DNA of 64,000 nt, taken from the NCBI RefSeq assembly GCF_900107035.1, contig NZ_FNOJ01000003.1, positions 62,001-126,000 of the forward strand, written 5' to 3'. This document shows, piece after piece, positions 20,780 through 26,049 of the stretch (positions are counted from its first letter, which is position 1; each line of letters opens with the position of its first letter). The translations under genes were made by a program, and so were the position numbers. The notes under the pieces were generated by a model. That model saw only the letters and a list, made by a program, of their open reading frames with translations, did no database searches and was not told the origin of the DNA. The DNA comes from Alicyclobacillus hesperidum (GTDB lineage: Bacteria > Bacillota > Bacilli > Alicyclobacillales > Alicyclobacillaceae).

Positions 20780-21439
20780 ATGCATTTGGTTAGTCTCGGC
20801 GACTCCATCACATACGGCGAAGGCGCATCTACTCCATCCCGCGCGTACCCGAGCGTGTTGACGGCACTGCTTCAATCACATCTCCGATCGCGCTCGTGTT
20901 GCGACGCCATTCTCGCAGAACCAGGTTGGACAAGTACAGATTTGCTCTCTGCACTCGGCGCCGCAGGCAACCTGCCACTGACCAATGCCCGCGCGGTCAC
21001 GGTTTGGATTGGTGGAGACGATCTCGCACAAGCGGCCTTGGCCACACTGGCAAGCGGTCGCAAATCGTTGCCCATTGCTCCGCTCGTCGTGCGTTACAAA
21101 CGGAATTTGACAGACATCGTGCGCTTCGCACAGGCGGACAGCAGGAACGTCGTGATCGTCTGCACACAATACAACCCCTTTCCAAACAGTCCATTGGCGG
21201 GCGAGGCGGTCGCCACTTTGAATGAAGCCATCCGCTCTGTCGCGGCCGCGACCGGGGCTGCGCTCGCGCCGGTTGCGGACTGGTTTGCCGGCCGCCAAAG
21301 CGAATTGATTCGCAACTACCGCACAGGCACGATCGCGGATGCCCTGCGGGGCCCCGCCCCGGTTCACCCGAACGACAGAGGGCATCGAGTGGTGGCAGAG
21401 GGCCTTTATCGCATGCTGGCACCAATCGTTGCGCACTGA
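20780..21439 (+). CDS. SGNH/GDSL-family hydrolase
   Basis: The 219-residue esterase/lipase-like enzyme has block I LGDSITYGEGA (Ser9), block III WIGGDDLAQ (in place of GxND) and block V HPNDRGHRV (catalytic Asp/His). There is no signal peptide, so it is apparently cytosolic or exported by another route. AGAGGTGAGG precedes ATG 20780. It lies directly upstream of sigK, and the sigK promoter candidate spans its stop codon. The substrate is unknown. Confidence 0.85.
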   Translation: MHLVSLGDSITYGEGASTPSRAYPSVLTALLQSHLRSRSCCDAILAEPGWTSTDLLSALGAAGNLPLTNARAVTVWIGGDDLAQAALATLASGRKSLPIAPLVVRYKRNLTDIVRFAQADSRNVVIVCTQYNPFPNSPLAGEAVATLNEAIRSVAAATGAALAPVADWFAGRQSELIRNYRTGTIADALRGPAPVHPNDRGHRVVAEGLYRMLAPIVAH

Positions 21440-21448
21440 CATAGGCTA
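21421..21448 (+). promoter_or_regulatory. Candidate sigma-K/sigma-E type promoter of sigK
   Basis: CATAGGCTA (21440-21448) fits the sigma-K -10 consensus CATANNNTA. An AC (21421-21422) lies 17 bp upstream, where the short sigma-K -35 is expected. The start site would be about 30 bp before the sigK TTG codon. This matches the known autoregulation of sigK, but no experiment supports it here. Confidence 0.45.
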
Positions 21449-21487: not shown

Positions 21488-21684
21488 TTGCTGTCATTCG
21501 CCTTGGCCGCTGCTCTGATGCGAGACATCGTGCTCGCCACCGGATTTGTCAACCAATCGTTTCCGCAACCGCTCAGTAAAGACGATGAACAGAAATATTT
21601 CGACTTATGGCGCAAACACGGCGACAAGCGGGCACATGACCTGCTTGTCGAACACAATTTGCGCCTGGTTGCACATGTCGCCAA
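21488..21684 (+). CDS. sigK: sigK, 5' part (pro-sigma-K N-terminus), interrupted by skin-like element
   Basis: Codons 1-65 plus two bases of codon 66. The TTG start follows GGAGGTG by eight bases. The product begins with a hydrophobic pro-sequence (SFALAAALMRDIVLATGF), as removed by SpoIVFB in bacilli, then NQSFPQPLSKDDEQKYFDLW and LLVEHNLRLVAHVA, the start of sigma region 2. Reading on through the element gives unrelated codons (NVSSTQSP…), so a functional sigma factor cannot be made from the unrearranged DNA. The 3' part lies at 24160-24694. Confidence 0.93.
21683..21684 (+). other. Left attachment site core (AA) of the sigK element
   Basis: The left junction reads ATGTCGCC-AA-CGTGTCATCG. 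The AA dinucleotide is the only position that, when crossed with the right AA, gives an in-frame sigK. Two-base cores are normal for serine recombinases. Confidence 0.8.
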
Positions 21685-21711
21685 CGTGTCATCGACACAA
21701 TCACCGATTCG

Positions 21712-23274
21712 TTACAGTTCGAACCGCGAACGCACGGTGAGGTGCACGGATTCGCCCCTGGCGTCCAATTCAACGCGATCGATCACGGCCTCGACCCACG
21801 CCCGACGCTCCCCGGGGTCCACGTCCCCGTCGGCGAGTAGCCATGCCTCTATCTTCTCGCGCTCGGCCTTGCGCTCCATCGCCTCCGTGCGCTTCGCGAT
21901 GCAACGTCTGCACACTTGCTCGCGCAATGCATGCCAGCGGATCTCAGCCTCGCGCTTGCGCACTGTGTACGTGTTCATATCGAGATCGCCATAGGCATAA
22001 AGGGTGGCAAGTCTTCCCTTGGCCGCCTCAATCGTGGCCAATTGCTCTGCCATAAGCCGCAAATCGTCTGCTGCGCCTGAATCGTCGCCGAGGATTGCGG
22101 AACCAGAGAGATGCGCCCACACGTCGTCCCAAACCTGGCTCTTCATAATCCGATGCACCAACTCGCGCCAGACGACTTGTTCGATAGCCGCGGCTGGTAC
22201 CCGTTTGCACCGATAGGGGCAGCGGGGCGTCTGTTTGACAGCTTCCGGTGGACGTCGATACCACCGCTGTGTGGTTCCCTTCCCGTTGTCAGATGCCGCA
22301 CTATACCACGTCTGGTGACATATTGAGCAGGTGAGATAACCTCCGAGCAAGTGTCGTTTGGCTTTCGCGGTACGCGCGCGCGCCCGCGACCGGCGGCGAG
22401 CGTTCACCGCCTCAGCAAGATCTGAATCAACGATCCGTGGGACAGGGATGCAAATCCAGTCACTCGGTTGTCGCCAGCCCACCACGATGCGCCGATTCGA
22501 GCGCTTAAGTCCAGGCACCCTGCGGGCGAGTCGCAGGGCCTTGCGGGTTGTCCGGCGGTTAAAATACCAAGTACCCGTGTACATGGGATTGGCCAATATG
22601 TGTCCAACGGTTGCGTGAGACCAGTTCTTGGATAAGCGCGTCTTCGTGGGCACACCTAACGCATCGAGGCGTTTGGCAATCGCGCGCAGACTGAGCTGTT
22701 CGTACGCATACCACCGATACATCATGCGGACGACGGCGGCCTCACTGTCGACGATGACGAGCTTGCCGTTTTCATACCTGTAACCATAGGGGTCAATACC
22801 CGTTGGCATGTACTGTCCACCCTTGGCAGCCCTCAATTTTCCGGAGAGTGTTCGACGACGTATCTGCCGCAGTTCATATTCTGCAATACTAGAGATAATA
22901 TGGAACAGAAGCACCGCCTCGTCGGACTGATCCCAGTTGGGGACATCGACAAAATGAAGTTCCACCCCGCACTGTTGCAATTCGCGGACAATCATCGCCT
23001 TGTCAGCAACGTTGCGCGAAAGCCTATCGGGGTGTTTGATGATGACCCTTGCAATTGTGCCGCGCCTGGCTTCATCGAGCAATGCCAACAAGGCCGGTCT
23101 ATCCATATCTTCCCCGGATGCCCCAGCTTCTTCATACACGCGGATGTCCGCTTGGGAAGCGCCTAACGCCAGTGCGTAGTGAATACACTGCTCACGCTGG
23201 ACCGCGAGACTATGCCCCTCAGCGGCCTGCACGCCTGTTGACACGCGCGTGTACACGGCTGTCAGCATTGGCAT
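21712..23274 (-). CDS. Large serine recombinase, SpoIVCA-like excisionase of the sigK element
   Basis: The 520-residue protein has an N-terminal resolvase domain (AVYTRVSTGVQAAEGHSL, nucleophile Ser12; KHPDRLSRNVADKAM; SSIAEYELRQIRRRTLSGK), then a Recombinase domain (TGIDPYGYRYENG … SHATVGHILANPMYTGTWYFNRR). A zinc-ribbon-like CSICHQTW…CPYRCKR block and an Arg/Glu-rich, coiled-coil-like C-terminus follow. This is the architecture of SpoIVCA. ATG 23274 (or 23268) follows GCGGGG; both are weak sites and overlap an upstream small frame with a better ribosome-binding site. The stop lies 27 bp from the left core. Its job is presumably to cut out the element. Confidence 0.93.
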   Translation of the reverse strand: MPMLTAVYTRVSTGVQAAEGHSLAVQREQCIHYALALGASQADIRVYEEAGASGEDMDRPALLALLDEARRGTIARVIIKHPDRLSRNVADKAMIVRELQQCGVELHFVDVPNWDQSDEAVLLFHIISSIAEYELRQIRRRTLSGKLRAAKGGQYMPTGIDPYGYRYENGKLVIVDSEAAVVRMMYRWYAYEQLSLRAIAKRLDALGVPTKTRLSKNWSHATVGHILANPMYTGTWYFNRRTTRKALRLARRVPGLKRSNRRIVVGWRQPSDWICIPVPRIVDSDLAEAVNARRRSRARARTAKAKRHLLGGYLTCSICHQTWYSAASDNGKGTTQRWYRRPPEAVKQTPRCPYRCKRVPAAAIEQVVWRELVHRIMKSQVWDDVWAHLSGSAILGDDSGAADDLRLMAEQLATIEAAKGRLATLYAYGDLDMNTYTVRKREAEIRWHALREQVCRRCIAKRTEAMERKAEREKIEAWLLADGDVDPGERRAWVEAVIDRVELDARGESVHLTVRSRFEL

Positions 23275-23407
23275 TCCCCGCTTTCTCACGACAATCGTGA
23301 CGCCCTTGCGAATCTTGCCAAATGAGCCTAGCGAAAACGTCCTTTGCTTGTGCTGGCGACATCGGTGTGATCGAAGTCTGCCAGTCAACATAAAACAGCC
23401 GATCCAT
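23219..23407 (-). CDS. Possible 62-codon leader ORF overlapping the recombinase start
   Basis: ATG 23407 follows GGGAAGGGGGTG at ideal spacing, far better than the recombinase's own site. The product starts MDRLFYVDWQTSITPMSPAQ and ends in Arg-rich sequence; its stop lies 55 bp inside the recombinase gene in another frame. It may couple translation to the recombinase, or may be a real short protein. No homologue is known to me. Confidence 0.4.
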   Translation of the reverse strand: MDRLFYVDWQTSITPMSPAQAKDVFARLIWQDSQGRHDCREKAGNANADSRVHARVNRRAGR

Positions 23408-23425
23408 GATGACACCCCCTTCCCG

Positions 23426-23456
23426 GTTGTATGCGAAAGAGGAGATGTCCTAACAC
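23426..23456 (-). promoter_or_regulatory. Candidate sigma-E promoter of the recombinase
   Basis: On the minus strand GTGTTA (23456-23451), a 17-bp spacer and CATACAAC (23433-23426) resemble sigma-E promoters (-10 CATACAnT, one mismatch). It precedes the leader ORF and recombinase, which fits mother-cell expression. Confidence 0.4.
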
Positions 23457-23493
23457 GGATCGGCTATTGATGCACAGAAATGTACCCACTTAT

Positions 23494-24111
23494 TTAGTTG
23501 GTGTCATCGCGTTTCGATCCTTGACTGCGCCGATGCTCCCAGATGCGAAACCACACAAATAGTGCAATGAGGAGAATGACAACGACAACCAAGAGTACAA
23601 TGTGATGTTTGAAAAACGGCCAGTACTTCGTGACAAATTCGCCAATATAACGACCAGCGATAATGAATAGGCCCGACCAGACGATGGCGGCAATGGTATT
23701 AAACACAAAAAACAACCAGGGCTTCATGCGGTTGATACCAGCGAGGTACGGAATTAGAATGCGCACACCAGCGATAAATTTGGCGATGAACACCACCCAG
23801 AGCTCATAACGCTGAAATCGTTCATTTGCAGCGTCAAGTTTCGCGGATGTGATACCGATGAATTTTCCAAAAAAGAGGACAATTGGACGACCAAGATACC
23901 ACCCAATGAGGTACGCAACGGCCGACCCAATCAAGTTGCCAAGGCAGCCAGCAAGCCAAAGTGGTACAAGGTGAAAGACACCTTTTGACCACTCGATACC
24001 GGAGAGCGTGAGCGTGGTTTCCGCAGGAAACGGGAAGCCGATGGCTTCAACCAGGATGATGAGAAACACACCAAAATATCCGTATTGATGGATGATCTCC
24101 TGAAAATGCAC
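23494..24111 (-). CDS. DedA-family membrane protein carried by the sigK element
   Basis: The 205-residue DedA/SNARE-associated family protein shows EAIGFPFPAETTLTLSG, GNLIGSAVAYLIGWYLG and the signature FIAKFIAGVRILIPYLAGINRM, with several membrane helices and a basic C-terminal tail. DedA proteins are linked to lipid-carrier (undecaprenyl phosphate or phospholipid) flipping and envelope homeostasis. GTG 24111 follows AAGGAGG by seven bases; the open frame upstream crosses the right junction and is not needed. The whole gene therefore lies inside the element, 46 bp from the right core, and would be lost on excision. Confidence 0.92.
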   Translation of the reverse strand: MHFQEIIHQYGYFGVFLIILVEAIGFPFPAETTLTLSGIEWSKGVFHLVPLWLAGCLGNLIGSAVAYLIGWYLGRPIVLFFGKFIGITSAKLDAANERFQRYELWVVFIAKFIAGVRILIPYLAGINRMKPWLFFVFNTIAAIVWSGLFIIAGRYIGEFVTKYWPFFKHHIVLLVVVVILLIALFVWFRIWEHRRSQGSKRDDTN

Positions 24112-24157
24112 AGAGTCGCCTCCTTGGGCTACCGCAAGTGACATTGTTGACGACACT

Positions 24158-24159
24158 AA
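24158..24159 (+). other. Right attachment site core (AA) of the sigK element
   Basis: The right junction reads ACGACACT-AA-GAAGTTTGAT. Joined to the left flank it gives GTC GCC AAG AAG TTT (V A K K F), as in intact SigK proteins. Confidence 0.8.
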
Positions 24160-24694
24160 GAAGTTTGATACGTCCGGGATTGATCAGGACGATTTGATTT
24201 CAATTGGCACGGTCGGCCTGATCAAAGCGGTGGACACATACCAGCCTGCAAAAGGCACAAAGTTTGCGACATACGCCGCTCGCTGCATTCAAAACGAGAT
24301 TCTTATGCAGTTGAGGGCGCAGCGCAAAACGCGTAAGGATGTCTCACTTTACAGTCCCATTGGCACAGATAAAGAAGGCAATGAAATCACCATCTCCGAC
24401 ATTTTGTTTTCTGAGAGCGATTCCACCGAAGATGAGGTCAGTCGGAAGATGGAAATCGACGGTATGAAGAAACTACTCGATGTCCTAGACGAACGGGAAC
24501 GTCGCGTAATCGAGTTGCGCTTTGGACTCGTAGACGGTCATGAATGGACGCAAAACGAAGTGGCAGATCTGCTAGAGATATCCAGATCTTACGTTTCCCG
24601 ATTAGAGAAGCGTGCTTTACTGAAAATGTTCCACCAGTCCTACGCAGGCCAAGAACGTAAACGTGCTTACCGACATTCGCGCGCGCAATCGTAA
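24160..24694 (+). CDS. sigK: sigK, 3' part (sigma regions 2-4)
   Basis: The last base of codon 66 and codons 67-243 plus stop. It reads KKFDTSGIDQDDLISIGTVG, then region 2 (FATYAARCIQNEILMQLRAQRKTRKDVSL) and region 4 (WTQNEVADLLEISRSYVSRLEKRALLKMF). No plausible start codon with a ribosome-binding site precedes it; it depends on DNA rearrangement for expression. With the 5' part it makes a late mother-cell sigma factor for coat and cortex genes. Confidence 0.93.
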
Positions 24695-24702
24695 TCCTGA
24701 AA

Positions 24703-24729
24703 TGCCGTCCGGATCAATGTCCGGACGGC
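24703..24729. terminator. Bidirectional hairpin between sigK and htrA-like gene
   Basis: GCCGTCCGGA and TCCGGACGGC form a 10-bp GC-rich stem around a 6-base loop, 8 bp past the sigK stop and covering the stop of the convergent protease gene. Confidence 0.6.
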
Positions 24730-25949
24730 CAAGTCCCCAATGTCACTTCGACTGTAATCTTCTTCCCATGGCGCAGCACTGTCAGCGTTACCTTCTGACC
24801 GGGATTGTCCTGATTGATATACTGGGTCAGCTGTTCAATGCTGTTTACTGGCTCGCCATCGATGCCCACGATAATGTCCCCATTTCCTTTCAAGATGGTA
24901 TAGGGATCAGCTGTATCGTTGGCACTATTCAGCTTATTCGCGTTGCTGTCGCCTTGCAAACCTGCTTTCGCAGCGGGGCCGTCCTTGGTCGTCTCCGTGA
25001 CGTAGACGCCGGACGAGACAGGCAGGTGCATGGCTTCTTGCATGAGGTTATCGATATCCATTCCCTCAATGCCAAGCCATGCATGCGCGATGGGCTGGCC
25101 GGACAAGAGCTTTGGTTCAAGTTGAATGAACCTATCAATCGGAATGGCAAAACCGATGCCAATCGAGCCTTCGATTGGACTTTCAATCAAGGTGTTAATG
25201 CCGACGACCTGGCCTGCAGCGTTGAGCAAAGGGCCGCCGGAGTTGCCTGGATTAAGCGGCGCGTCCGTCTGGATCATGCCGTTCATGACGTGACCGCTCG
25301 ACTCAGACATGGAGCGATTCAAGCCGCTGACGATCCCGGAGCTGACGCTCGACGTGAGTTCAAACGGATTGCCAATGGCAATGACCAGGCTACCTGGCTG
25401 TAGCGATTTCACCGACCCGAGTGGCAACGGCTGCAACGAAGCGGGAGCAGGGATACGGACGATGGCGAGATCGTCCAATTTGTCAGCATTGAGTACGCGT
25501 CCGACATACTGACGGTTCCCGCTAGATACCTCGACGGTCTTGGCACTGCCGACAACGTGCGCATTTGTCGCAATATCCCCGTTACGATCGATGAGAAAGC
25601 CTGTGCCGATATCCTCTTCGGCCCCGCTGTCCGAAGCTGACTTGCCCCCAGATACCGCCGTGATCGTGAAGATGCTATTTTTCACGCGGTTGTATATATC
25701 CGTAACCAAGGTTGTATTGTCAACGCCAGGAATCGCCGTGGTCGAACTGCTCGATCCAGAACCGTTACTCGCAACCGAAGGTACGTATTCCACCGTCGCT
25801 TGGTGTCCGGAGTGGCTGATGGCTGCTCCCGTCCAAATGCCTAGCACATAAAACACCGCGAGACCTGCGACGATGCTTGGTAGCAACACCGTTCGCCTAC
25901 GCCGGCCATCGCCCGGCCAATCGTCAAACTCATCGAAACGCCGCCCCAT
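24714..25949 (-). CDS. Membrane-anchored HtrA/DegP-like serine protease with PDZ domain
   Basis: The 411-residue protein has a short cytosolic N-terminus, one membrane helix (VLLPSIVAGLAVFYVLGIWTG), a Ser-rich linker, then a trypsin-like domain with His in ATNAHVVG, Asp in KLDDLAIVR and Ser in NPGNSGGPLLN. One PDZ domain follows (GVYVTETTKDGPAAKAGLQ … ILKGNGDIIVGIDGEPV). It degrades damaged proteins outside the membrane. ATG 25949 follows AAAGGGGGAGG. It is convergent with sigK and outside the element. Confidence 0.93.
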   Translation of the reverse strand: MGRRFDEFDDWPGDGRRRRTVLLPSIVAGLAVFYVLGIWTGAAISHSGHQATVEYVPSVASNGSGSSSSTTAIPGVDNTTLVTDIYNRVKNSIFTITAVSGGKSASDSGAEEDIGTGFLIDRNGDIATNAHVVGSAKTVEVSSGNRQYVGRVLNADKLDDLAIVRIPAPASLQPLPLGSVKSLQPGSLVIAIGNPFELTSSVSSGIVSGLNRSMSESSGHVMNGMIQTDAPLNPGNSGGPLLNAAGQVVGINTLIESPIEGSIGIGFAIPIDRFIQLEPKLLSGQPIAHAWLGIEGMDIDNLMQEAMHLPVSSGVYVTETTKDGPAAKAGLQGDSNANKLNSANDTADPYTILKGNGDIIVGIDGEPVNSIEQLTQYINQDNPGQKVTLTVLRHGKKITVEVTLGTWPSGH

Positions 25950-26049
25950 CGTGCCTCCCCCTTTTGCCACCACATGTTGTTGCCTTCATTCTAACCATCC
26001 GCCTCTACGTGCACAAACAAAAGGCACGTTACAACGCGCGAGGTGGCTG

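Follow-up and report, generated by a model that had tools for sequence, protein, structure and literature searches.

A minimal skin-like element in a second sigma-K gene of Alicyclobacillus, long retained and predicted to be excised in the mother cell

Within the 64,000-nucleotide stretch of the Alicyclobacillus hesperidum genome analysed here (the window), a gene for a SigK-type sigma factor lies in two pieces, and the question raised by this locus is whether the 2,475 bp between them have put the gene out of use or are removed from it during sporulation. We consider it very probable that the intervening DNA is a minimal, long-retained element resembling the skin element of Bacillus subtilis, and that its excision in the mother cell joins the gene, here termed sigK2. 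In the host genome (G000; 2.86 Mb, 53 contigs, 98.98% complete) the frame of sigK2 opens at a TTG at 21488, runs for 65 codons and is taken up again at 24158. Removal of 21685-24159 at an AA common to both ends gives a 732-bp frame of 243 codons and a stop, with no internal stop, which confirms to the base the junction proposed in an earlier, sequence-only reading of the window. The joined protein reads ...RLVAHVAKKFDTSG... across the junction and scores 313 bits against the NCBIfam model TIGR02846 (the SigK equivalog; cut-off 298.65). The element ends in imperfect inverted arms of about 20 bp (CGTGTCATCGACACAATCAC versus AGTGTCGTCAACAATGTCAC), and its three plausible genes, for a large serine recombinase, a small open reading frame (ORF) and a DedA-family protein, all lie on the minus strand. 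The features are as follows.

21440..21448, plus strand: CATAGGCTA, presumed mother-cell-type -10 box ahead of sigK2
21488..21684, plus strand: sigK2 5' half, TTG start, 65 codons plus the crossover AA
21683..21684, plus strand: attL copy of the crossover dinucleotide AA, within GTCGC[C/T]AA in 14/14 elements
21685..24159, no strand assigned: intervening element, 2,475 bp
21685..21704, plus strand: left element arm, imperfect inverted repeat with 24138-24157
21712..23274, minus strand: large serine recombinase (Pfam), 520 codons, read towards the sigK2 5' half
23219..23407, minus strand: small ORF, 62 codons, candidate recombination directionality factor (RDF), overlapping the recombinase start
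23430..23452, minus strand: TAGGACATCT-N9-CATA, SpoIIID-box-like motif and -10-like CATA ahead of the small ORF
23494..24111, minus strand: dedA (VTT-domain) family membrane protein gene, GTG start, Pfam VTT_dom 65.5 bits
24138..24157, minus strand: right element arm, partner of the left arm
24158..24159, plus strand: attR copy of the crossover dinucleotide AA
24158..24694, plus strand: sigK2 3' half, 178 codons plus stop

Several hallmarks of a skin-type element are thus present: an interruption of a SigK gene whose removal restores the frame, a large serine recombinase located next to the 5' half, and a short common core between inverted arms. The compact, skin-like excision device predicted by the sequence-only reading is borne out by these sites, genes and in-frame junction, as is the orientation that it gave for the recombinase; its count of two clear genes is raised to three by the small ORF. 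A GDSL-type lipase/acylhydrolase gene (20780-21439) lies upstream of sigK2 and a gene for an HtrA-like trypsin/PDZ protease (24714-25973) downstream.

We compared the locus among 15 genomes of the genus (host included) and 26 other genomes of the family. The same element, with its junction, recombinase and dedA, was found in 14 of the 15 genus genomes at lengths of 2,439-2,643 bp, and the joined protein as query found an uninterrupted SigK2 in none of the 15. In the 13 genomes other than the host's, orthologs of the recombinase have 48-95% identity to that of the host and those of dedA 62-97%. Core dinucleotide and arms are retained in all 14 elements, as are the YxRVST and PDRLSRN motifs and four cysteines of the recombinase, which we take to be catalytic and zinc-binding residues. 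Because the junction with open halves recurs in 14/15 genomes it is more than chance, and an assembly error was rejected since the junction is identical in 14 genomes. Named records at seven of seven loci assign the orthologous recombinases to A. tengchongensis, A. sacchari, A. acidiphilus, A. mali, A. fructus, A. suci and A. fastidiosus. In the 26 other family genomes SigK2 is uninterrupted in 19 and split or incomplete in seven, none of them at codon 65.

The remaining genus genome (G008) has one contig that ends ...CACGTCG and another that begins CCAAGAAG..., and these abut at the crossover with neither gap nor overlap. No orthologous recombinase or dedA is present in this assembly, where the best matches have 31% and 33% identity. 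An assembly fork between excised and integrated forms, with loss of a short element contig, would give such a break; alternatively, the element may truly have been lost and the contig broken there by chance.

Trees of the recombinase, dedA and host flanks are largely congruent, with 10 of 11 bipartitions in common between recombinase and dedA, 8/11 between recombinase and flanks, and 9/11 between dedA and flanks. The element therefore appears old and mainly inherited vertically, such descent being the simplest reading of the trees. Both halves of sigK2 are under strong purifying selection. When considering pairs of species whose sigK2 is not split twice, the ratio of nonsynonymous to synonymous substitution rates (dN/dS) of the 3' half is 0.00-0.02 in six of seven pairs (the seventh being saturated), and that of the 5' half 0.00-0.14 in six of seven (the seventh being without changes). 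With the element in place, the 3' half is without the start codon and promoter of the gene, and so low a ratio in a promoterless fragment is hard to explain without regular rejoining. As the element is apparently older than the species, regular rejoining is also the plain way to keep the halves functional. The earlier argument for selection, made from the undamaged look of the halves, is thereby strongly supported. Genes within the element are conserved as well: dN/dS is 0.10-0.19 in the recombinase and 0.03-0.12 in dedA.

The interrupted gene is a SigK paralog, which corrects the sequence-only reading, in which it stood as the only copy in the cell. At G000:C18:121367-122038 the host genome has an uninterrupted SigK1 that scores 330 bits and so also passes the TIGR02846 cut-off; the next gene belongs to the YqeG family (135 bits; cut-off 89). 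This neighbour accompanies SigK1 at 7/8 family and 9/9 sister-family loci examined, and is found at 2/30 short loci from the remaining class and at none of ten uninterrupted SigK2 loci. A tree of 59 sequences places SigK1 with the single SigK of other Bacilli (support 93/76) and SigK2 beside the sister family's second copy (97/83), the latter a grouping flagged for the meeting of long branches, so that an order-level origin of SigK2 is tentative. Among 121 genomes sampled from the class (E <= 1e-84), 61 genomes of other families give one match each and 51 give none (31 of these lying outside the matches listed), and the sole genome with two, G017, belongs to the Alicyclobacillus family. SigK1 is uninterrupted in 14/15 genus genomes, the exception being G012, and in one further genome (G035) a SigK1-like gene appears to lie in two pieces on different contigs (C50:169323-169664; C17:112871-113233). 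The earlier reading had set down a second intact sigK as evidence that would count against it. This copy does away with an obligatory gate on all sigma-K activity, and sigma-K as such cannot be said to require excision; the excision reading itself is unaffected.

What might control excision is suggested by the small ORF and by the motifs ahead of the genes. Upstream of sigK2, ACATAGGCTAGG is identical in all 15 genus sequences, and a CATA box also precedes each of ten uninterrupted sigK2 genes examined from other genera; we take this -10 box to be of a mother-cell promoter class. The SpoIIID consensus is WWRRACARNY. Ahead of the small ORF, T[AT][AG]GAC[AG] is followed by CATA at one fixed distance in 14/14 elements, and the motif fits that consensus at 7-9 of 9 scored positions, G004 reaching 7. 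A fit of 8/9 with CATA at that distance arose in 0-0.2% of 2,000 simulated sequences with the same dinucleotide make-up. General searches of the region gave three sigma-70 promoters and two terminators, compared to 2.5 and 3.7 in shuffled sequences.

The ORF itself has a ribosome-binding site, and an open ORF occupies its position in 14/14 elements, where it was located with the pattern R-[PL]-[IVLF]-[FRY]-V, a motif that is thus partly a search handle. Its frame stops 14-17 nt before, or 32-41 nt after, the YxRVST codons of the recombinase. It matches no family in Pfam, NCBIfam-type profile or PHROG searches; neither its best PHROG hit (E 0.052) nor a structure model with a predicted local distance difference test score (pLDDT) of 63.3 and a predicted template modelling score (pTM) of 0.36 was used as evidence. 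From the gene layout we infer a candidate excision factor. The recombinase matches the Pfam Resolvase and Recombinase models, with a zinc ribbon match below the cut-off of that model, and the DedA product matches the UptA model, likewise below cut-off. In four species the recombinase frame crosses attL and ends inside the sigK2 5' half, so that the C-terminus of the protein would change upon excision. A close phage source for the recombinase was rejected, since all 545 matching phage records are below 60% identity (23.4-28.2% in the 15 matches listed; 24-33% for three viral contigs). A prophage remnant was also rejected on gene content, as only the recombinase, small ORF and dedA were found, with no phage genes.

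Taken together with known systems, these features suggest how the element would act. During growth its presence would leave sigK2, the second SigK-type sigma factor gene, split after codon 65. Once the cell sporulates, a promoter of sigma-E/SpoIIID type in the mother cell would drive the putative RDF and the overlapping recombinase, which together would join attL to attR at the common AA, releasing dedA, rdf and recombinase on a 2,475-bp circle and leaving sigK2 in frame. The joined gene would be confined to the mother cell, which dies anyway, and the forespore would retain the element. Timing and cell type we infer from the small-ORF motif and from B. subtilis and Clostridioides difficile. 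In the B. subtilis skin (48 kb; SpoIVCA, Skr), which is under sigma-E/SpoIIID-type control (PMC6957869, PMC517825), the RDF gene skr encodes 64 aa, lies immediately upstream of spoIVCA and overlaps it by 101 nt in the +1 frame (PMC6957869). Both elements split a SigK gene, direct a serine recombinase towards its 5' half and have a small ORF overlapping the recombinase start, the two ORFs being likened by layout and not by sequence; the Alicyclobacillus element, however, is about 20 times smaller, lacks phage genes, and lies at another site in a paralog. The C. difficile skin (CD1231, CD1234) similarly pairs a recombinase with a small RDF under sigma-E/SpoIIID, but has 19 genes, a constitutive recombinase and an insertion site unlike that of B. 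subtilis (PMC5025042).

Other elements are alike in further respects. Island IV (22 kb), which interrupts sigK in B. cereus biovar anthracis, is not phage-like; its recombinase adjoins the 5' fragment and faces the other way (PMC10745906). Inserted at sigK nt 195, it is the nearest by position, at about the same codon when positions are compared by number alone; it differs in encoding 17 proteins with a restriction system and in being found in a few strains and not a whole genus. The gin element in gerE of B. cereus (28.6 kb; GirC, GirX) is a non-phage element with a recombinase and a small RDF, but has another target, three recombinases and 31 genes (PMC5595907). The Alicyclobacillus phage MMB025 (105 kb) shares the genus, a SigK-type target and a SpoIVCA-family integrase (PMC13141910), but it is a full temperate phage and, by size and core, apparently sits at another site, in SigK1. 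The element is thus predicted to act like skin and is set apart from skin proper because its target is not the sole, canonical sigK, an intact yqeG-linked SigK1 lying elsewhere, and because its content is not prophage-like. An open-access literature search gave no report of the element or of a second SigK in Alicyclobacillus among the matches listed, an earlier mention being possible, and a 2012 survey touching on Alicyclobacillus, sigK and sporulation does not contain the word skin.

A number of observations weigh against mother-cell excision of an old element. The excised junction at sigK2 was seen in none of the 15 assemblies, the single match to it, in G009, being at a different place, and the recombinase and host trees disagree on the place of G004, each with a support of 0.96. 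A fragment of the sigK2 3' half could start at a TTG that lies in frame at 24194, and intact SigK1 makes the need for joining sigK2 non-obvious. The small ORF has a dN/dS of 0.30-0.79 in the part not overlapping the recombinase, so that, set against the values for recombinase and dedA, its coding status is likely but not proven; its conservation is weak, with 20-24% identity to distant members and no invariant residues across 8 sequences but R, V and L, and in G003 and G007 (2/14) it is open without ATG, GTG or TTG near the ribosome site. Its putative promoter is read from the fit to a consensus, and the stricter pattern GGACATC-N8-10-GCATA occurs only twice in the whole genome, which makes it at most a candidate for a general mother-cell promoter.

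Three other explanations can be weighed with these points. The insertion could be fixed and inert, no longer excised and harmless in a dispensable duplicate; the uninterrupted SigK1 of most genus genomes, which could make SigK2 a spare, and the missing joined copy would fit, yet halves and recombinase are under strong purifying selection over distances at which synonymous sites are near saturation, and every element keeps its core and arms, which makes inertness very improbable. Excision might also be real but outside mother-cell control, as for the yin element of Clostridium botulinum, whose excision is described as random, under stress or in a subpopulation (PMC10747680). This we regard as unlikely: the promoter class is indeed a putative one and the small-ORF motif rare in the genome, but germ-line excision would lose an element that 14/15 genomes retain, and the motif keeps its fixed spacing throughout. 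Less unlikely, if still doubtful, and compatible with excision, is that the element is kept mainly for a DedA cargo that replaced a chromosomal copy, the split being tolerated. The dN/dS of dedA is below that of the recombinase in every pair computed, and, among the matches listed, another DedA of at least 45% identity is found in 2/15 genus genomes (G003, G004) while 24/26 other family genomes have one of at least 43% elsewhere. Such a role would, however, leave selection on the recombinase and sigK2 3' half unexplained, and more distant DedA genes remain, while both a function of the element's DedA and a need for it are presumptive. Mother-cell excision is the reading we retain, and the element is real, old, selected and probably active, its excision being predicted from sequence.

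SigK genes of the family are split at further sites. In four of the 15 genus genomes (G003, G006, G007, G012) sigK2 is split again between GNE and I by 4.4-5.3 kb, with a serine recombinase of 72-92% identity among the four and 24-32% to the first recombinase. The cargo of this second element differs, being an MFS transporter plus an L,D-transpeptidase-type protein in G003 and a chemotaxis receptor in G006, and the three pieces of the twice-split genes rejoin on paper to full SigK2. A core of AATGA or AATGAA is found on the left side in 4/4 and on the right in 2/4, which leaves it uncertain in G003 and G007; three B. cereus strains are reported to have AATGA at nt 423 of sigK, as in B. subtilis (PMC10745906). 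In another genus of the family (G029; C1:1661000-1669000) an insert of about 4.6 kb, which carries a different serine recombinase, splits sigK2 near the NE/IL position and is by its sequence another small skin-like element. Five further genomes (G015, G020, G021, G028, G033) have sigK2 split or fragmented at about codons 110-116 or 141-148, some pieces lying 17-74 kb apart, and sigK2 is thus a repeated target in the family. In G012 the yqeG-linked SigK1 is itself split between NE and IL, its parts being about 105 kb apart and GAGA standing at either side (G012:C1:3017500-3021500 and 3123500-3127500). This matches the size and core of phage MMB025 of A. acidoterrestris (105 kb, TCTC core, target named sigK; PMC13141910), so that the published target would be SigK1. 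With SigK1 and sigK2 both interrupted, all sigma-K activity in G012 would depend on programmed DNA rearrangement.

We lean towards a broader interpretation, held with less confidence than excision itself: that a three-gene excision cassette, inherited from the genus ancestor onwards, has been domesticated as a permanent developmental switch for a second sigma-K, that SigK genes of the family have been hit at three sites, and that in G012, probably A. acidoterrestris, three elements with different recombinases split both SigK genes and make all sigma-K activity rearrangement-dependent. The elements in sporulation genes whose published sizes were compared are of 11 kb or larger, and those described are confined to some strains or species; at 2.5 kb, without phage genes, in 14/15 species and with signs of long selection, that of Alicyclobacillus stands out. 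Recombinase, candidate RDF and attachment (att) sites from moderately thermophilic hosts also come together in it as one small natural set. The Alicyclobacillus family sporulates with two SigK-type factors, and Alicyclobacillus cells probably remove the element at each sporulation. With this element, the standing question of whether developmental DNA excision is a tolerated parasite or a selected control device becomes testable.

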